From: Methanobrevibacter sp.
Lineage (GTDB): Archaea; Methanobacteriota; Methanobacteria; Methanobacteriales; Methanobacteriaceae
Assembly (NCBI RefSeq): GCF_017468685.1
Contig: NZ_JAFUHT010000084.1
Location: forward strand, 1-40,251
Length of the DNA: 40,251 nucleotides
Direction of reading: 5' to 3'
The position numbers were made by a program, and so were the translations under genes. The notes beneath the pieces were generated by a model that saw only the letters and a list, made by a program, of their open reading frames with translations, made no database searches and was not told where the DNA came from. Within the stretch, counting starts at the first letter, position 1. Each line of letters starts with the position of its first letter. Positions 3,220 to 11,619 of the stretch are shown here, one piece after another.

Positions 3220-4578
3220 ATGAACAGTAATGATAATTCAAATAATGTGGAGGTAATGCTTGGAAATCCAAAGCAGGCATTAATAAAGATGTCTATACCT
3301 TTGATTGTATCATTACTAATCACCAGTTTTTATAACTTAATTGATGCCGCTTGGGTGTCCGGTCTTGGAGCAGATGCCCTTGCAGGAGTCGGATTTTTCA
3401 CACCAATATTCATGATTCTTGTTGGCTTTGGAAACGGTTTAGGGTCTGGTGCGGCATTTGCAATATCAAAATATTTGGGTGAAGAAAATAAACAAAAAGC
3501 AGATAATGCTTCAATTCATTCAATTTTAATCGATATTGTCATTTCAATAGTTATAACAGCTCTATTGCTGATTTTCCTAAATCCAATACTTGAGGTTATG
3601 GGTGCCGGTCAGACCATCGGTTATGCGACAGATTATGGTTTAATCATTATTTCAGGTTCAATACTGGTTATTCTTTCAAATGCATTGTATGGGATTTTCA
3701 GAGGTGAGGGGGACACTACAAGGCCGATGTATGCCATGATTGCATCAGCAATACTTAACATGATTTTAGATCCTATTTTTATCTATACTTTAAATTTGGG
3801 AGTTGAGGGTGCTGCTGTTGCAACACTAATTTCTGCTCTATTTGTAATTTTGATTTTAATCTATTGGTTTTACGTTAAAAGGGACACTTATCTGAAACCT
3901 AATTTAAGCAATTTCAATTTTAAAAGAGGTATTTCAATTGATATTGTAAAAGTGGGTTTGCCTGCAAGTATCCAGCTTTTAAACAACGCATTTTTTGCAG
4001 CAGTATTTTCAGCCCTTCTTGCCTTTGTCGGCTCAACAGATTCCGTGGCGGTCTACTCAACCGGATGGAGGATTGTAATAATTGGAACAACACCGATTTT
4101 GGCTATTGGAACAGCACTTATAAGTGTTATTGCAGCAAACTATGGTGCCCGCAATTTTAAAAACATTCAGATTGCCCACAGGTACGCAATGAAAGTATCT
4201 CTGGTTTTAGGCATAATCGTTATGATTTTAACCAACGTCTTTGCAGGACAAATTGCATCCATCTTTGCTTCATCAGGAAGCAGTGTCAGGATTGCAGGTG
4301 AGCTTACGGCATTCCTTGCATGGATTGTAATCTATTATCCGACCATGGCTGCAGGAGTGCCATCAACTTATGTTTTCCAGGGCATTGGTAAAGGGATAAC
4401 TGCAATGTTTCAGACAATAATAAGAGAAACAGGTTTTACAATATTTTTTGCTTATCTTTTGGCTGTTGTTTTGGGTTATGGTGTGTGGGGAGCCTGGATG
4501 GGCATTGTACTGGGTGAAGTTGTTTCTAATAATCTTACCATGCTTTGGGCTGATTGGGAGATTAAGAAATTATTTTAA
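3220..4578 (+). CDS. MATE-family multidrug/metabolite exporter
   Basis: A 452-residue polytopic membrane protein of the MATE family (NorM/DinF type), which exports cationic or amphiphilic small molecules using a Na+ or H+ gradient. The sequence shows about twelve hydrophobic segments and two homologous halves. It has family-typical stretches such as the N-terminal LGNPKQALIKMSIP, GDTTRPMYAMI at the end of the first half, and GLPASIQ at the start of the second. ATG 3220 was chosen over Met13, because the GGAGGT before Met13 is only one base away and the promoter fits a leaderless start. It lies between the metal-efflux genes and the nickel/opine-type importer. A role in exporting the metallophore is possible but unproven. 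Confidence 0.85.
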   Translation: MNSNDNSNNVEVMLGNPKQALIKMSIPLIVSLLITSFYNLIDAAWVSGLGADALAGVGFFTPIFMILVGFGNGLGSGAAFAISKYLGEENKQKADNASIHSILIDIVISIVITALLLIFLNPILEVMGAGQTIGYATDYGLIIISGSILVILSNALYGIFRGEGDTTRPMYAMIASAILNMILDPIFIYTLNLGVEGAAVATLISALFVILILIYWFYVKRDTYLKPNLSNFNFKRGISIDIVKVGLPASIQLLNNAFFAAVFSALLAFVGSTDSVAVYSTGWRIVIIGTTPILAIGTALISVIAANYGARNFKNIQIAHRYAMKVSLVLGIIVMILTNVFAGQIASIFASSGSSVRIAGELTAFLAWIVIYYPTMAAGVPSTYVFQGIGKGITAMFQTIIRETGFTIFFAYLLAVVLGYGVWGAWMGIVLGEVVSNNLTMLWADWEIKKLF

Positions 4579-4893
4579 ATAATCTATATTTCATATAATC
4601 TTTTTCATGATTTAATGAATTCATTTATTTTAATTGTATCATCGTAACTTTTTAGCATACATTAATCAATTAACTTATTTTTTAACAGTTGTATTTTCAA
4701 TTTAATGCATGTTTTTGTTTCATCATTTTTTGTATTTGAAAATTTTCAATAGTAATTATTAAATACTTTAAGATTAATATTATTTATTGTAATATCATTT
4801 AATAAATAAGTATTACTAATTACATAATTTTAAACAAAAAAGTAATACAATCATGGATATTACTTTAATTTAATATTTAATGAGGAATATAAA
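4579..4893. promoter_or_regulatory. Regulatory region of the metal/peptide ABC importer
   Basis: About 315 bases without a gene. It contains a TATA-like AATAAATA just upstream of the 39-bp operator (4810-4848), an extra half-site ATATTACT (4857-4864), and a ribosome binding site TGAGGA (4881-4886) before the ATG at 4894. The operator lies where polymerase would start transcription, as expected for a repressor site. Confidence 0.6.
4810..4848. promoter_or_regulatory. 39-bp operator, copy 1 (GTATTACT-N23-AGTAATAC)
   Basis: A perfect 8-bp inverted repeat with a 23-base spacer. The identical half-sites and spacing recur twice at 10923-10961 and 10983-11021. The arrangement recalls the long-spaced palindromes of the nickel regulator NikR, but the spacer is longer than the 16 bases in the E. 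coli site. The regulator is therefore not certain. Confidence 0.7.
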
Positions 4894-6498
4894 ATGGACA
4901 CAAAATATATTATAGCAGCAGTTGTAGCAGTTATTGCAGTGATCGGTATAGCTGCCTTCGCATTAGGTGGGGGAAGCACTGAACATGCAGCTAACGAATT
5001 AGTTACATGTGTTGCTGCTCACGGTGAAGAACCAGAATTTGGTTTCGACCCAATGCACGGTTGGGGATACCATGATTCCGGAACAGAACCTCTTATACAA
5101 AGTACAATTCTTAAAAGAGATAAAGACAATAATTTCGTAAATGACTTGGCGACCGATTACAGCATATCAGACGATTTCAAAGAATACACAGTAACAATCC
5201 GTGACGATGTAAACTTCACAGACGGTTCAAAATTAACAGCAGATGATGTAGCATTCTCATACAACAAAGCTAAAGAACTAGGTGAAGGAGCAGATTTAAG
5301 CTCATTGGATGAAGCCAAAGCGGATGGAGATAAAGTTGTATTCAAACTCAACAAAGCGGATTCAACATTCATAAACAAATTGACTGATGTGGGAATCGTT
5401 CCTGAAGAAGGATATGACGAAAACTCTTACGGTCAAAACCCAATCGGTTCAGGACCTTATAAACTAGCTCAATGGGATAAAGGTCAACAATACATCCTTG
5501 AGAAAAACCCTGACTATTATGGAGAAGAACCATACTTTGAAAAAATAACCAACTTATTCCTTGATCCGGATGCAGCATTTGCAGCAGTTAAAAACGGTGA
5601 TGTTGACATTGCTGAAGTGCAAGTGTCATATGCAGATGAAAAAGTTGACGGTTACCATATGGAATACTTCGACTCCATTGATGTACGTGGTATATCCTTG
5701 CCAACACAAATGGACACCGGTAAATTAAGTGAAGACAACATCACTATCGGTAACAATGTAACCGGAGACCCTGCAATAAGAGAAGCATTAAACATTGGAA
5801 TCAACAGAGAAACATTGCTCGAAGGAGCATTAAACGGTTATGGTGATGTAAACTACAATGGTGTAGCTGATCAATTAGCATGGTCCTTTGAATCAACCTA
5901 TAAAGACGGCGATGTTGACCAAGCAAAAGAAGTTCTCAAAGCAGCAGGATGGGAAGACACTGATGGTGACGGAATCGTGGAAAAAGACGGTCAACCTGCA
6001 GCATTCGATATATACTACAACTCACAGGCATCTGAAAGACAAGCAATTGCAGTGGCTGTAGCTGAACAAGCTAAAGACATCGGTATTGATATTAATCCTG
6101 TTGGAGGAAGCTGGGATGACATCGACCCTAACAAATACAGTCAAGGTGTAGTATGGGGATTCGGTTCAGCAGATCCAATGGAAATCCAACACCAATATGA
6201 CTCAGAAGTAGCAGCAGTAGGTTATGACAACCCTGAAGCACTTAACGACACTGCTGTAGATTCATTGATTGATGCGGCAATGGCTCAAGACCTTAATGCT
6301 TCATACTCCACTTGGTCACAAGCTGCTCAACAAGCAAATTCCAACTATCCATTCCTATGGGTTGGAACAATGGACTACACCTACTTCGTAAGTGACGACT
6401 TGGACATTTCCAACAGCACTCACCTCATCTATCCACACGGTGGAGATATCTGGGGTAACATCTACGATTGGAAACGTGTAAACGAAACTGAAGCATAA
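4894..6498 (+). CDS. ABC transporter substrate-binding protein, nickel/peptide/opine family (SBP family 5)
   Basis: The 534-residue extracytoplasmic receptor of the importer encoded downstream. Residues 4-27 form a hydrophobic N-terminal segment that probably anchors it in the membrane; there is no lipobox Cys. The mature part is a family-5 solute-binding protein: FGFDPMHGWGYHDSG near the start, the IRDDVNFTDGSKLTADDVAFS stretch typical of NikA/DppA/OppA proteins, NPIGSGPYKL, and AIREALNIGINRETLL. His residues cluster early (HGEEPEF, MHGWGYH) and could help bind a metal complex. Its promoter carries the same operator as the nicotianamine synthase region, which suggests the ligand is a metal-chelate rather than a peptide. 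Nickel or nickel-metallophore is the best guess; peptide cannot be excluded from sequence. Confidence 0.88.
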   Translation: MDTKYIIAAVVAVIAVIGIAAFALGGGSTEHAANELVTCVAAHGEEPEFGFDPMHGWGYHDSGTEPLIQSTILKRDKDNNFVNDLATDYSISDDFKEYTVTIRDDVNFTDGSKLTADDVAFSYNKAKELGEGADLSSLDEAKADGDKVVFKLNKADSTFINKLTDVGIVPEEGYDENSYGQNPIGSGPYKLAQWDKGQQYILEKNPDYYGEEPYFEKITNLFLDPDAAFAAVKNGDVDIAEVQVSYADEKVDGYHMEYFDSIDVRGISLPTQMDTGKLSEDNITIGNNVTGDPAIREALNIGINRETLLEGALNGYGDVNYNGVADQLAWSFESTYKDGDVDQAKEVLKAAGWEDTDGDGIVEKDGQPAAFDIYYNSQASERQAIAVAVAEQAKDIGIDINPVGGSWDDIDPNKYSQGVVWGFGSADPMEIQHQYDSEVAAVGYDNPEALNDTAVDSLIDAAMAQDLNASYSTWSQAAQQANSNYPFLWVGTMDYTYFVSDDLDISNSTHLIYPHGGDIWGNIYDWKRVNETEA

Positions 6499-6521
6499 AT
6501 GATTTGTTTTCACAAATCATT
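6498..6521 (+). terminator. Intrinsic terminator/attenuator between binding protein and permease
   Basis: A perfect hairpin with stem ATGATTTGT / ACAAATCAT (6499-6507 and 6512-6520) and a 4-base loop, followed by a long T-rich tract, directly after the stop codon. It probably ends most transcripts after the binding-protein gene, leaving read-through for the permeases. Confidence 0.8.
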
Positions 6522-6551
6522 CTTTTTTCTTTTTTTTAATAATTATTAGAG

Positions 6552-7547
6552 TTGATTAAAATTAATACAAAAAAATTAGTGAAATTTTTAGGATTTAAAG
6601 CCGTAAGATTACTAATTTTATTAATTGTCATTGCAGCAATAAGTTTTATAATCGTACAACTCTCTCCAATAGATCCTGTAAAAGCATATCTTGGCCAAAG
6701 AATAGTCAGCCAGGAACAGCTTGCAATTGTCGGGGAGTATTGGGGAACAAATTTAACATTAACCGAAAGAGTATTGGGCTGGCTTCAGACATTGGCATCC
6801 GGAAGCATGGGATTTTCATTGATTTACAGGGTGCCTGTTACTGAAGTGATTGCACAAAAGTTCACCGCATCATTTACTCTTATGATAGTGTCTTGGGTAA
6901 TATCTGGAATTGTTGGTTTTGGATTAGGAGTAATTGCCGGTGCTAAAGAAGGAACATGGATTGATAAGGCAATTAAAACTTATTGTTACATTTTACAGTC
7001 TTCACCTACATTCTGGATAGGTTTAGTAATCTTAATGGTATTTTCAGTGTATTTGGGATGGTTCCCAATAGGGCTTTCAGTTCCGATTGGACAGCTTTCG
7101 GATACTGTAACATTCTGGCAATGGCTGTATAGGCTGATTCTTCCTGCATTCACATTAAGTATTGTTGGAATAGCGTCCCTTACAATGTATACAAGAGATA
7201 AGCTTATAAGCGTTAAGAAAAGTGATTATTTCCTTTTCTCAAAAGCAAGAGGTGAAAGCTTTTGGGGAATGATTAAAAACCATGGAATAAGAAATATTCT
7301 GCTTCCCGCAATATCAATACAGTTCTTGTCATTCAACGAACTTTTCGGTGGAACAATACTTGTAGAACAGGTATTCGCATATCCTGGAATAGGTCAGGCA
7401 ACAGTGGCTGCAGGACTCAGGTCTGATGTTCCATTATTATTGGGTATTGTTATTGTAAGTACAATATTCGTTTTTGCAGGAAATTTCATTGCAGATATCA
7501 TTTATAAATATGTTGATCCGAGAATAAGGAGTGAGGACGATGAGTGA
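6552..7547 (+). CDS. ABC transporter permease, NikB/DppB type
   Basis: A 331-residue inner membrane subunit of the importer. It starts with a hydrophobic segment (residues 17-37) and the LSPIDPVKAYLG stretch typical of the DppB/NikB N-terminal domain. About five further membrane segments follow. SPTFWIGL and the EAA-type coupling loop (FSKARGESFWGMIKNHG, ILLPA) are present; this loop contacts the ATPases. The chosen start is TTG at 6552 because no ATG lies near the N-terminus; no clear ribosome binding site is seen, so the start is uncertain. It overlaps the next permease gene by 8 bases, so the two are translationally coupled. Confidence 0.88.
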   Translation: MIKINTKKLVKFLGFKAVRLLILLIVIAAISFIIVQLSPIDPVKAYLGQRIVSQEQLAIVGEYWGTNLTLTERVLGWLQTLASGSMGFSLIYRVPVTEVIAQKFTASFTLMIVSWVISGIVGFGLGVIAGAKEGTWIDKAIKTYCYILQSSPTFWIGLVILMVFSVYLGWFPIGLSVPIGQLSDTVTFWQWLYRLILPAFTLSIVGIASLTMYTRDKLISVKKSDYFLFSKARGESFWGMIKNHGIRNILLPAISIQFLSFNELFGGTILVEQVFAYPGIGQATVAAGLRSDVPLLLGIVIVSTIFVFAGNFIADIIYKYVDPRIRSEDDE

Positions 7548-8391
7548 AATGCCATGGTACAACAGGGGATTGTTTGCATCCCTTAATTTAAGGCAGAAAA
7601 CAATATTGACTATAGCACTCACTGCACTTGTTTTAGCGATAATTTTCATTAGCGGAACATTAATCGATGCTAATTTGCCGACAGATTTTACTATAAAAAT
7701 GCAGGCACCTTCATTCGCACACCCATTCGGTACCGATTGGATGGGAAGGGACATGTTCATAAGAACCCTGAAAGGTTTAAGTCTAAGTATTGTCATTGGT
7801 CTTGGGGCTTCAATACTTTCAAGTATAATTGCAACATTATTGGCGTTTCTTGCAAGTGTCAACAAATACACTGACACATTCGTTTCATGGCTGATTGACC
7901 TGTTTGCTTCAATACCTCATATCCTGCTGATTATGATGATTTCAATCGGTTTCGGTAAAGGGGCATTCGGTGTAACAATGGCAGTTGCATTCTCACACTG
8001 GGTAAACCTTACAAGAGTTTTAAGAGCAGAGGTGCTGCAGATTAAAACATCAGAATTTGTGGAATTATCTTCAAAATTTGGAAGAAGCAAATTATGGATT
8101 GCAAAGGAACATATCCTGCCTTTGATATTGTCCCAGATATTTGTAGGAACATTGCTTGTATTCCCTCATGCAATCATGCACGAGTCAAGTGTAACATTCC
8201 TCGGCTTCGGTTTGTCACCGCATGAACCTGCAATCGGTATCATATTGTCAGAATCAATGTCATATCTTGCAATGGGTGCCTGGTGGCTTGCATTCTTCCC
8301 AGGTGTTTCACTGCTGATTGTGGTATTACTGTTTGATATAATGGGAGATAATCTGAAACGATTGTTTGACCCTTCAGAGGCAAATAACTAG
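7540..8391 (+). CDS. ABC transporter permease, NikC/DppC type
   Basis: A 283-residue second permease. The N-terminal membrane segment is followed by the PSFAHPFGTDWMGRDMFIR motif that marks DppC/NikC proteins. About five more membrane segments follow, with an EAA loop (FVELSSKFGRSKLWIAKEH, LPLILS). ATG 7540 was preferred to the upstream GTG at 7531 because GGAG (7528-7531) sits eight bases before it. The start overlaps the end of the first permease gene. Confidence 0.88.
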   Translation: MSEMPWYNRGLFASLNLRQKTILTIALTALVLAIIFISGTLIDANLPTDFTIKMQAPSFAHPFGTDWMGRDMFIRTLKGLSLSIVIGLGASILSSIIATLLAFLASVNKYTDTFVSWLIDLFASIPHILLIMMISIGFGKGAFGVTMAVAFSHWVNLTRVLRAEVLQIKTSEFVELSSKFGRSKLWIAKEHILPLILSQIFVGTLLVFPHAIMHESSVTFLGFGLSPHEPAIGIILSESMSYLAMGAWWLAFFPGVSLLIVVLLFDIMGDNLKRLFDPSEANN

Positions 8392-8400
8392 GGTGGTATT

Positions 8401-9348
8401 ATGGGAATCTTATTGGAAGTAAATAACTTATCAATATCCTTCACACAATACGTGGAAGGATTGAACAGGCACGATTTGAAAGTAATATCTGATTTGACAA
8501 TTGATGTTGATGAAGGAGAAATTGTAGCAATACTGGGCTCAAGCGGTTCAGGTAAAAGTCTTTTGGCTCACTCAATCCTGGGAATTTTACCATACAACTC
8601 CCATGTGACAGGTGAAATAAAATATAAAGATGCAGTCTTAACACAATCATTGAAGGAAAAATTACGGGGCAGTGAAATATGTCTGATTCCACAGTCTGTG
8701 AATTTCCTTGATCCTCTTATGAAAGTTTCAGAGCAGGCAATTGGAGAATGCAAGGATGATGATGAGCATGACGCTAAAAAAATCAAACAAAGGGAAATCT
8801 TTGCCCGTTATGGATTGGATGAAAGCGTTGATGATTTATATCCCTTCGAGTTATCCGGTGGAATGGCCCGTAAGGTATTGCTCTCCACTGCACTGATTGA
8901 TGATCCGACATTGTTAATTGCAGATGAGCCAACACCAGGTCTTGATTCACAAAGCGTAAAGGAAACTATTGAGGACATTAAAAACTTAAAAGAACAGGGC
9001 AAAGGCGTTTTACTTATTACTCATGAGATTGATGTTGCCTTAAAAACAGCGGACAGGATTGCAATATTTTATTCAGGCTATGTGATTGAAGTCAACACTG
9101 CCGAAAACTTCAAAAATCAAAAGAATATTCTGCATCCATATACTAAGGTTTTGATTGATGCATTGCCAAGAAACGGTTTCAATTATGCTGAAGGAGTACA
9201 GCCATTGGATGAGGTTGCAGGATGTCCGTATTATGAAAACTGTTCCGTACGTCTGGACAAATGCAGAGATGAAAAACCGGAATTAATCAACCATGAAGGC
9301 ATTATGATAAGATGCTTTAATTTCAAGGAGGTTAATGATGAATCTTAA
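8401..9348 (+). CDS. ABC transporter ATPase, NikD/DppD type
   Basis: A 315-residue nucleotide-binding subunit. It shows Walker A (GSSGSGKS), a Q-loop (IPQSVNFLDPLMKV), the ABC signature variant LSGGMARK, Walker B (LLIADEPT) and an H-loop (LLITHE). The C-terminal extension has four Cys (CPYYENC, KC, RCF), the typical tail of oligopeptide/nickel ATPases, where it may bind an iron-sulfur cluster or metal. The start has GGTGGT six bases upstream and follows the permease stop by nine bases. It pairs with the next ATPase. Confidence 0.9.
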   Translation: MGILLEVNNLSISFTQYVEGLNRHDLKVISDLTIDVDEGEIVAILGSSGSGKSLLAHSILGILPYNSHVTGEIKYKDAVLTQSLKEKLRGSEICLIPQSVNFLDPLMKVSEQAIGECKDDDEHDAKKIKQREIFARYGLDESVDDLYPFELSGGMARKVLLSTALIDDPTLLIADEPTPGLDSQSVKETIEDIKNLKEQGKGVLLITHEIDVALKTADRIAIFYSGYVIEVNTAENFKNQKNILHPYTKVLIDALPRNGFNYAEGVQPLDEVAGCPYYENCSVRLDKCRDEKPELINHEGIMIRCFNFKEVNDES

Positions 9349-9949
9349 GGCAGAAAACATTTCATTTTCCTACAATAAAAAAAGACAGATACTGAAGGAT
9401 ATTTCCCTATCCCTTGACAGCAATAAAATAATTGGATTGATTGGAGATAGTGGAAGCGGTAAATCAACATTATGTAAAGTAATGGCGGGTTACATTACCA
9501 ATTATTCAGGTAAAGTATCTCTTGACGGTGAAAAGATATCTGATAAGGATTTCTATCCTGTGCAGCTGATTTTCCAGCATCCTGAAAAGACCATGAATCC
9601 AAAATGGAAAATGGAAAAGGTACTGAAGGAATCATGGAATCCTCCTCAGGAGCTAAAGGACACTTTCGGTTTGAAAGAAAACTGGCTGACACGTTGGCCA
9701 AATGAACTGTCCGGTGGTGAACTTCAGCGTTTCAGCATATTGAGATCACTTAATCCAAAAACAAAATTCATCATTGCCGATGAGATAAGTACCATGCTTG
9801 ATGCATTGACACAAGTGCAGATATGGGAAGCACTCATCAATCATGCAAAGGCAAATAACATTGGAATACTGGCTGTTAGCCATGATATTGAATTGCTTGA
9901 AGTAATATGTGATGATATTTTGTATTTTAATGAGATTAATGGTGTTTAA
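9338..9949 (+). CDS. ABC transporter ATPase, NikE/DppF type (short)
   Basis: A 203-residue second nucleotide-binding subunit, with Walker A (GDSGSGKST), Q-loop (LIFQHPEKTMNPKW), signature LSGGE and Walker B (FIIADEISTMLD), where the usual DEPT is changed to DEIST. H-loop: AVSHD. It is shorter than typical NikE/DppF proteins because it ends soon after the H-loop and lacks the C-terminal Cys-rich tail. The second of two ATGs (9335, 9338) has the better spacing from GGAGGT (9327-9332). It overlaps the end of the preceding ATPase gene. Confidence 0.88.
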   Translation: MNLKAENISFSYNKKRQILKDISLSLDSNKIIGLIGDSGSGKSTLCKVMAGYITNYSGKVSLDGEKISDKDFYPVQLIFQHPEKTMNPKWKMEKVLKESWNPPQELKDTFGLKENWLTRWPNELSGGELQRFSILRSLNPKTKFIIADEISTMLDALTQVQIWEALINHAKANNIGILAVSHDIELLEVICDDILYFNEINGV

Positions 9950-9985
9950 TTAATTCATTCTCTTTTTTTCCTTTTTTAGTTATTT

Positions 9986-10008
9986 GTTCGCCAATAATTT
10001 TGGCGAAC
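9986..10008. terminator. Bidirectional hairpin terminator between importer and nicotianamine synthase
   Basis: A perfect 8-bp stem GTTCGCCA / TGGCGAAC with a 7-base loop, between two convergent genes and preceded on the + strand by T-runs (9962-9977). It is placed to stop transcription from both sides. Confidence 0.75.
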
Positions 10009-10020
10009 GAACTATAAATT

Positions 10021-10842
10021 TTAATCGATTTTTCTAATAAGGACTGATGTGTTATTTGTTTTGCCTGAAGGAAGCATCATAACCTCCTTATGAAAACCCC
10101 TGGTGTCCTTGTCAAGAACCGGAGAATATAATATTGCTCTCATTCCAGTGTAGGTTCTGTAAATCACCGGTGTTTTTTCACTAACATATTCCCAGATATT
10201 TGCAAACACTCTGTCTTTTGGCTCAGCCAATGCAGCAACCATTAAAATATCATAATCCAAATCCTTGATTGTGGTTTCATCACCAACAACAATCTCAATA
10301 TCATTGTCAAGTTCTAATTTCTTTAAAACTTTTCTTGAAAGTTCTGCAACATCTTCCTGCTGCTCGATACCGATACATTTGCATCCGAAAACCATATTGA
10401 ACATTATCAATGTTAAAGGCAATGGTCCTGATCCTAAAAATACGAAAGTTTTATCTTCATTGAATTTGGCCAATTGGCTTTCGTTTTCAACAAGTCCAAT
10501 ATAACGGTCATAGAAATGAAATGAATCAAGGGTTTCTTTTGGATTTTCAGATTCCAATATCTTCAAGGCGTTTTCTGTTTCAAGTCTGGCTCCAATGTAG
10601 ACATAGAATTTACGAATCAGCTTTAAAGCCCTGTTCATCTTCTCATCATCCAGGATGTGCTTTGCAGAATCAAAGTCAATTGTCTTGTCGTGGGCAATGA
10701 TTTCAACATCATCCAGGATTTCAATGATTTCATCAATGTTTATGTCGTCAAGTTCTGAATTACCGTATTTGTCCAAATCACCATATGATGATAATTTGTT
10801 AGCAATTTCTTCTAGTTTTCCCCAATATTTGTAACAGCTCAT
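10021..10842 (-). CDS. Nicotianamine synthase (archaeal thermonicotianamine type)
   Basis: A 273-residue enzyme that should join aminocarboxypropyl groups from S-adenosylmethionine into a nicotianamine-like metal chelator; the Methanothermobacter homolog makes thermonicotianamine with glutamate as acceptor. The sequence shows an N-terminal helical domain, then a Rossmann methyltransferase-like domain with the hallmark FLGSGPLPLT (about residues 135-144). It also has VAALAEPKDRVF, YRTYTGMRAILYSPV and LPSGKTNNTSVL, which match my memory of the Methanothermobacter enzyme. E88 and Y114 keep the 26-residue separation of its catalytic Glu and Tyr (E81, Y107 as I recall). ATG 10842 was chosen; a GTG at 10851 is possible. 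It lies beside a nickel/opine-type importer and shares that importer's operator element. Confidence 0.9.
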   Translation of the reverse strand: MSCYKYWGKLEEIANKLSSYGDLDKYGNSELDDINIDEIIEILDDVEIIAHDKTIDFDSAKHILDDEKMNRALKLIRKFYVYIGARLETENALKILESENPKETLDSFHFYDRYIGLVENESQLAKFNEDKTFVFLGSGPLPLTLIMFNMVFGCKCIGIEQQEDVAELSRKVLKKLELDNDIEIVVGDETTIKDLDYDILMVAALAEPKDRVFANIWEYVSEKTPVIYRTYTGMRAILYSPVLDKDTRGFHKEVMMLPSGKTNNTSVLIRKID

Positions 10843-10865
10843 TTTTACCACACTATAAATAACAA

Positions 10866-10878
10866 ATTTTATATATTA
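10866..10878 (-). promoter_or_regulatory. TATA box of the nicotianamine synthase gene
   Basis: Read on the minus strand, AATATATAAAATT lies about 30 bases before the ATG at 10842. Transcription would start very near the start codon. The two 39-bp operators lie 45-155 bases upstream of this box. Confidence 0.5.
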
Positions 10879-10922
10879 TTTTATTCATTATCATTATTAA
10901 AGTTGTTTAAATTTAAAATAGA

Positions 10923-10961
10923 GTATTACTAAATCTTTAAATTTAGTTAAAAAAGTAATAA
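10923..10961. promoter_or_regulatory. 39-bp operator, copy 2 (GTATTACT-N23-AGTAATAA)
   Basis: Same half-sites and same 23-base spacer as copy 1, with the last base C changed to A. The inner part also contains CTAAAT/ATTTAG, nested inside the main repeat. It lies upstream of the TATA box of the acetyltransferase gene and upstream of the synthase promoter on the other strand. Confidence 0.7.
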
Positions 10962-10974
10962 CTTTATAATTTTA
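10962..10974 (+). promoter_or_regulatory. TATA box of the GNAT acetyltransferase gene
   Basis: CTTTATAATTTTA sits between operator copies 2 and 3. The expected transcription start, about 25 bases downstream, falls inside operator copy 3, a classic repressor geometry. Confidence 0.55.
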
Positions 10975-10982
10975 TTTTTAAA

Positions 10983-11021
10983 GTATTACTAATTCGTTAA
11001 ATTTAGTCGAAAAAGTAATAC
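10983..11021. promoter_or_regulatory. 39-bp operator, copy 3 (GTATTACT-N23-AGTAATAC)
   Basis: A perfect 8-bp inverted repeat with a 23-base spacer, exactly 60 bases after copy 2. It covers the predicted transcription start of the acetyltransferase gene and ends seven bases before its ribosome binding site. Confidence 0.7.
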
Positions 11022-11040
11022 TTTTTTGGAAGGTTTTAAT

Positions 11041-11619
11041 ATGGATATTTCAATTAAAACATTGGAAAATAATTTGGATCAAATAAATAATGTTCAAAAA
11101 TTATTGTTTTCTCAAATTAAAAAAGAATTTGGATATGATTATGTTCCGGAGTTTCATATGGACATAAAAAATTTAAATGAATATTATATTTCTCCTCAAA
11201 GAAATAATTTTTACATTGCAACAAATGAAAATGATGAAATCATTGCCACTATAGGACTTAGGGCATATGATAAGAATTTCAATGAATTCAAAGGAAAATA
11301 CTCAAAAGAAACTACCTCCAGTATTTGGAGATTATTCGTAGATGAAAAATACAGAAGATGTGGCATTGCATCAATGCTTTTTAGAATAGTTGAAAGATTT
11401 TCATGTGAAAATAATTACAATGAAATTTACCTTCACACACACAAAACTCTTCCGGGAGCCATTGATTTTTGGAAAAAAATGGGATTTAATATAACAATCG
11501 ATACAAACAATGAACTGCAAACAGTACACATGGATAAAGCTATTCTCAATCAAAAAATTAACTACTCTTTAGTTTCAACTTCAATTCAAAATCATAACAA
11601 TTATGTTATATTAATTTAA
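11041..11619 (+). CDS. GNAT-family N-acetyltransferase in the metallophore regulon
   Basis: A 192-residue GNAT enzyme, which would move an acyl group from acyl-CoA to an amine. The acetyl-CoA binding motif A is visible as WRLFVDEKYRRCGIASMLF (about residues 106-124), followed by the C-terminal strand LPGAIDFWKKMGF. The substrate is unknown. The start is ATG 11041, with GGAAGG (11028-11033) seven bases upstream; a TTG at 11026 overlaps that site and is unlikely. Two operator copies flank its TATA box, and the same element controls the importer and probably the divergent nicotianamine synthase. It might therefore acylate the metallophore or a precursor; an unrelated metal-stress role is also possible. 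Confidence 0.8.
   Translation: MDISIKTLENNLDQINNVQKLLFSQIKKEFGYDYVPEFHMDIKNLNEYYISPQRNNFYIATNENDEIIATIGLRAYDKNFNEFKGKYSKETTSSIWRLFVDEKYRRCGIASMLFRIVERFSCENNYNEIYLHTHKTLPGAIDFWKKMGFNITIDTNNELQTVHMDKAILNQKINYSLVSTSIQNHNNYVILI
11606..11613 (+). promoter_or_regulatory. TATA-like box of truA, probable leaderless start
   Basis: TTATATTA lies about 23-26 bases before the ATG at 11632, and no ribosome binding site is present. A leaderless transcript is likely. Confidence 0.4.

Follow-up and report, generated by a model that had tools for sequence, protein, structure and literature searches.

The window analysed here is a 40,251-nucleotide stretch with a G+C content of 34%; it is contig C84 in a Methanobacteriaceae genome of 2.28 Mb. 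It holds a homologue of thermonicotianamine synthase (NAS), an importer encoded by five genes, and a gene for a GNAT acetyltransferase, arranged so that the importer (4894–9949, plus strand) and NAS (10021–10842, minus strand) converge and NAS and the GNAT gene (11041–11619, plus strand) diverge; the positions given to these genes in the initial annotation were all correct. The importer is of the peptide/nickel ABC class, with one substrate-binding protein, a pair of permeases and a pair of ATPases, all encoded in one run on the plus strand. The binding-protein gene (4894–6498; PF00496, SBP_bac_5) is followed by a NikB/OppB/YntB-like permease gene (6552–7547; PF00528, BPD_transp_1), which the Opp4B, nickel Opp2B and NikB models match below their cut-offs, and by a NikC/OppC/YntC-like permease gene (7540–8391; PF00528) in a frame open from 7531, for which the best model, the nickel Opp2C, is also below cut-off. 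The two ATPases are a NikD-like protein with an oligo_HPY domain (8401–9348; PF00005, PF08352) and a NikE-like protein of short form (9335–9949; PF00005), about 204 aa long in relatives too, with NikD and NikE as the respective best models, again below cut-off.

The synthase matches PF03059 with 77.8 bits (cut-off 27.1) and, over its full length, the structure 3fpe of the archaeal enzyme MtNAS (E = 8e-88). Its start was placed at a conserved MSCY within a frame open from 10851. The catalytic residues of MtNAS, Glu81 and Tyr107 (PMC10491745), correspond to E91 and Y117 of the window protein and are invariant in 14 homologues, while the score against the CntL equivalog reached 36.3 bits against a cut-off of 350. 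The enzyme is predicted to convert SAM and an amino-acid starter into a thermonicotianamine-like chelator. A crystal structure is known for the archaeal nicotianamine-type synthase, but the literature that we found gives it no established biological role.

The importer had been described as a complete NikABCDE/CntABCDF-type system. The five-gene class was rightly recognized, but the proteins reached none of the NikABCDE or Cnt equivalog cut-offs (the binding protein scored 122.1 bits against 393 for NikA and 98.2 bits against 800 for CntA), and a CntABCDF identity was rejected on these scores. The closest relative of the binding protein is instead the nickel protein YntA: a phmmer comparison with the YntA structures 3ry3 and 4ofl gave E values of about 1e-90, against 4e-37 for the next solved relative, and the two proteins have a DPMExxHxY stretch in common. 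These likenesses suggest an importer of the YntABCDE type that carries nickel. The initial annotation had named an importer shown to bind only peptides as something that would refute its proposal; this did not come true, since among solved structures the one closest to the binding protein belongs to a protein for nickel rather than for peptides.

The acetyltransferase (PF00583; alternative TTG start at 11026) is predicted by AlphaFold2 to adopt a GNAT fold, with a mean pLDDT of 85.6, and a structure search returned assorted GNATs that agree in the general fold and are uninformative as to substrate. It probably acts on the free amine of the chelator, either finishing the molecule or forcing release of the metal inside the cell.

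These genes are joined by a common operator. Copies of a 39-bp element lie at 4810–4848, 10923–10961 and 10983–11021, each of the form GTATTACT-N23-AGTAATA(C/A), and this strict pattern has three matches in the 2.28-Mb genome, all of them within the window, and zero matches when reversed as a control. The 39-bp operator of the initial annotation is real, but it is better drawn as a 41-bp element composed of two palindromic 9-mers, AGTAWTACT, spaced 32 bp centre to centre (about three helical turns); since AGTATTACT is the reverse complement of AGTAATACT, each of the two is a near-palindrome of this form. The first operator (4809–4849; AGTATTACT...AGTAATACA, 32-bp spacing) lies 44 bp 5' of the binding-protein gene, and the other two, at 10922–10962 (two mismatches) and 10982–11022 (perfect), both lie in the gap between NAS and the GNAT gene. 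The three units do have sites in common, as had been claimed, but NAS and GNAT do not have one each: they share a single gap with two. The system had also been taken to begin at 3220, that is, with a MATE transporter gene (3220–4578, plus strand; PF01554/TIGR00797). Membership of this neighbouring gene is not supported, as it has no operator in the window or in any of its seven orthologues, and, its linkage being found mainly in close relatives, it was rejected as the exporter of the set. It is at most a possible exporter.

A loose scan for half-sites was swamped by AT-rich repeats and was replaced by a test of 9-mer pairs with control palindromes. In 61 NAS regions we counted 65 AGTAWTACT pairs at 32 bp, compared with 0–2 for each of eight control AT-rich palindromes. 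The operator stands directly upstream of 18 of 21 binding-protein genes, 26 of 34 GNAT genes and 18 of 61 NAS genes, as against 14 of 675 other genes; two-thirds of NAS genes thus have no directly upstream operator, and some of these sit within operator-bearing operons. A separate genome-wide set, from which six binding-protein and three hmd loci do not weigh against the operator because contig ends had led to wrong anchoring, placed it at the binding-protein gene in 22/30 loci and at hmd in 10/30 (one overlapping the coding start), so that membership of hmd in the regulon is restricted to certain lineages.

The genome of the window has five best sites, those that deviate by no more than two mismatches at the 32-bp spacing: one at the importer, two in the NAS/GNAT gap, one in the hmdC–hmd gap and one 5' of the cbiM/nikM operon, which includes a PDGLE (NikN-type) subunit and has an additional perfect AGTAWTACT pair at 33-bp spacing. 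Across other genera the operator is found 5' of CbiM, hmd, binding-protein, GNAT and some P-type ATPase genes, and in four loci (L143, L151, L154, L160) an operator-bearing GNAT gene lies beside importer genes with NAS elsewhere. The nickel-free hydrogenase Hmd increases under nickel limitation in Methanothermobacter marburgensis (PMC12350162, PMC3087415), and CobN1 and NikR1 are reported to reach a high level only under nickel limitation (PMC12350162). Because the operator stands at hmd and Hmd rises when nickel is limiting, the regulon looks like one for nickel scarcity; and because the operator of NAS, importer and GNAT is also that of nikM/cbiM and hmdC/hmd, the initial proposal of one nickel regulon is well supported.

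NikR, present in one copy in this genome and in 138/152 relatives, is most likely the regulator that binds the AGTAWTACT pairs. Both this assignment and the repression that would go with it are predictions, since the operator at nikR itself is weak (at most three mismatches in 8/20 loci against 0.9 expected, at most two in 1/20) and one genome with NikR has no operator site.

Several further genes carry the operator. Genomes of the Methanothermobacter type have it 5' of a gene for a chelatase subunit: at L156:4699-9374 and L157:4346-6225 this is a putative cobaltochelatase subunit, and in L156 an ECF transporter comes next, so that these are a candidate nickel chelatase or transport set. Very large surface or adhesin-like proteins of several methanogens bear the operator, as if nickel-regulated, in six loci (L139, L144, L145, L148, L149, L167). 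Six others (L068, L069, L070, L082, L084, L150) encode a heavy-metal P-type ATPase of a subtype unlike that of the window, with several operators and often adjoining NAS. At L151:4917-5609 a QueG/reductive-dehalogenase-like protein of 230 aa diverges from the binding-protein gene of a second importer, with the operator gap in common, and 230-aa open reading frames of the same cluster occur in L052, L057, L060, L063, L065 and L066.

Among 152 genomes, NAS was found in 104 and the binding protein in 105. Both occur in 80, NAS only in 24, the importer only in 25 and neither in 23 (Fisher p = 0.003, uncorrected for kinship). The 24 NAS genomes without a YntA-type importer include all eight of the Methanothermobacter-type family, where GNAT lies near NAS and the operator is common to both. 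The initial annotation had called for a comparison of gene neighbourhoods, and the linkage does recur: the importer lies within about 10 kb of NAS in 15 of 61 NAS regions from four genera, and about 0.7 linked regions would be expected by chance among 48, against the 15 observed (again uncorrected for kinship). It takes several forms, with importer and NAS convergent as in the window; with AtpD, AtpE and NAS in one direction, NAS following AtpE by 19–52 bp and GNAT divergent (six genomes); or with the order SBP-B-C-D-E-GNAT-NAS in a single direction. GNAT is a commoner partner of NAS than the importer is: 27 of the 61 regions have it no more than 6 kb away. What appeared to be a pair of ABC ATPases beside NAS in seven loci (L042, L044, L047–L049, L056, L075) was rejected as a second importer, the pair being one 592-aa protein, which we take to be of the ribosome-recycling ABCE1/RLI type. 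In three genomes (G044, G068 and G015) NAS is fragmented or partial, and the importer is kept in the first two; these may be users of foreign chelators or faults of draft assembly.

Relatives of NAS were sought beyond the class by a scan of named genomes and were found in bacteria and other archaea. A Peptococcaceae genome has NAS divergent from CbiM-CbiQ-CbiO, a lake euryarchaeote has NAS followed by CbiM, and a fen euryarchaeote has NAS (its frame containing a stop in the deposited sequence) followed by CbiM, PDGLE, NikR, CbiQ and an ABC ATPase. Two tandem NAS genes adjoin a DUF4198-CbiM-NikL-like-CbiQ-CbiO set in Desulfospira joergensenii and strain NaphS2, and in D. joergensenii a racemase-like gene comes after the pair. 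In the class-level relative G001 (L036:9603-13599) a znuA-znuC-znuB-DUF3194-NAS run, its genes -8 to 12 bp apart, diverges from NikR. Taken across lineages, these neighbours show the synthase accompanying metal importers of three classes, and NikR wherever a regulator is in view (two lineages).

The NAS pair with racemase recurs in other Desulfobacterales, where the conserved tandem pair and racemase-like gene (L244:6165-12766; L246, L369, L242, L360–L364, L370) lie beside ECF nickel/cobalt transporter genes in three genomes and are apparently an undescribed nickelophore-like gene cluster. The arrangement at L036 bears on whether some proteins called NikR are zinc regulators. Syntrophic bacteria with a methanogen-like NAS (62–63%; 63% in Syntrophaceticus schinkii) have another GNAT gene just downstream (L222:3140-3439, L223:4288-4728), which tblastn did not recognise as an orthologue of that in the window.

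Parts of this picture resemble known systems. MtNAS (MTH675; PDB 3fpe, 3o31) shares the full-length match and the catalytic Glu and Tyr, and the M. thermautotrophicus locus (L051) has a divergent GNAT gene and a version of the operator; the YntA-type importer, in contrast, was not found in the Methanothermobacter-type family, whose NAS and GNAT are without it. The staphylopine, pseudopaline and yersinopine systems (CntL, CntM, CntABCDF) likewise link a NAS-like synthase to an Opp/Nik-class importer under metal-scarcity control, but the window proteins are far below the CntL, CntA, CntC, CntD and CntF cut-offs, and the window has a GNAT gene and a nickel operator instead; a search for the opine dehydrogenase (PF10100) gave matches in 0 of 152 genomes and was equally silent in the positive-control genomes. 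YntABCDE of Yersinia (YntA: PDB 4ofl, 4ofo, 3ry3) is of the same five-gene class, and no other solved structure is as close to the binding protein as YntA, matched over its full length, whereas the version in the window is archaeal and adjoins a nicotianamine-type synthase. The NikR-controlled NikMNQO of methanogens (Rodionov et al., 2006, via PMC10617489) is a nickel regulon with a CbiM/NikM transporter; the regulon here adds NAS, GNAT, a Ynt-type importer and hmd, and its site consists of AGTAWTACT pairs at 32 bp. NAS has been suggested to aid metal uptake in Methanobrevibacter in reports whose passages on it deal with presence or absence only and mention neither an importer nor an operator, a connection with nickel or a comparison of gene linkage (PMC8485483, PMC10819710). 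The NAS enzyme, the general notion that chelators of the nicotianamine type help to take up metals, YntABCDE and the predicted control of methanogen NikMNQO by NikR are already known; within a literature of partial coverage we found no paper that connects the NAS of archaea with an importer, with an operator or with nickel.

Since NAS, importer and GNAT have their operator in common with known nickel genes, the chelator of archaeal NAS most probably helps the cell to obtain nickel under scarcity, and a role in the handling of nickel, possibly of a wider range of metals, is well supported. A fuller reading, towards which we lean slightly, would run as follows. With nickel sufficient, a nickel-sensing repressor (most likely NikR) would occupy the paired AGTAWTACT sites and keep the three units off. 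At low nickel, repression would be lifted and NAS would use SAM and an amino-acid starter to build a thermonicotianamine-like chelator, which would leave the cell via a putative exporter and capture nickel; the YntABCDE-type importer would take the nickel-chelate in, and GNAT would tailor, inactivate or unload the chelator, probably at its free amine.

It is the outward leg of this cycle that invites the main rival. The view of the initial annotation, that the methanogen makes the chelator and then recovers it, is kept here as a hypothesis: the survey of upstream sequences in NAS regions found no exporter gene with an operator, and NAS lacks the importer in 24 genomes as the importer lacks NAS in 25. 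The chelator may instead be a cytosolic buffer or chaperone of nickel for the assembly of F430, hydrogenase and CODH that is never exported, with the importer separately taking up nickel bound to histidine or to foreign chelators and both merely belonging to the same regulon. Nicotianamine works mostly within the plant, Methanothermobacter-type genomes have NAS, GNAT and operator without the YntA importer, and in other lineages the partners of NAS are ZnuABC or ECF transporters, a family that takes up the free ion. Together with NAS and importer each being frequently alone and with no exporter bearing the operator, these ECF partners make the intracellular ligand a serious rival. We nevertheless consider it rather unlikely, as the linked importer is of a chelate-carrying class, its ATPase genes and NAS are closely packed in one run in the six genomes noted above, and genomes with the importer only could be users of foreign chelators.

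The metal might also be zinc, cobalt or several, the chelator then being a broad-range metallophore like staphylopine, whose metal range is broad (PMC9598555). NAS ends the znu run of the class-level relative, NikR beside ZnuABC has been suggested to respond to zinc (PMC3087415), and CbiM systems are able to carry cobalt. We regard this reading as improbable in view of the operator at hmd and at the PDGLE-containing CbiM operon of the same genome, of the nickel response of Hmd (PMC12350162), and of the two lineages in which NikR lies within or next to the genes around NAS. That an ordinary peptide importer lies beside NAS by chance and that the operator is AT-rich noise, as the mostly peptide-importing Opp/Nik family and the AT-rich region could suggest, is very improbable and largely refuted by the control palindromes, by the excess of linked regions (kinship uncorrected) and by YntA as nearest solved relative.

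Returning to the nickel-scarcity reading, we put forward tentatively, and with some doubt, that it reflects an old nickel-directed metallophore module of the nicotianamine type, common to methanogens and to bacteria that are syntrophic or reduce sulfate; the synthase would be constant, the importer would be swapped (YntABCDE, CbiMNQO or ZnuABC) and an acetyltransferase would replace the opine dehydrogenase as the tailoring or release enzyme. If true, this would be, to our knowledge, the first archaeal metallophore system in which a single nickel switch governs both synthesis and import. Through the operator and the linkage, the archaeal nicotianamine-type synthase gains a concrete role that is testable in cultured strains, and the response to nickel limitation comes to include a chelator and an acetyltransferase. 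Operator and linkage also suggest that there is competition for nickel in methane production in the rumen and gut, including strains that import the chelator but do not make it.
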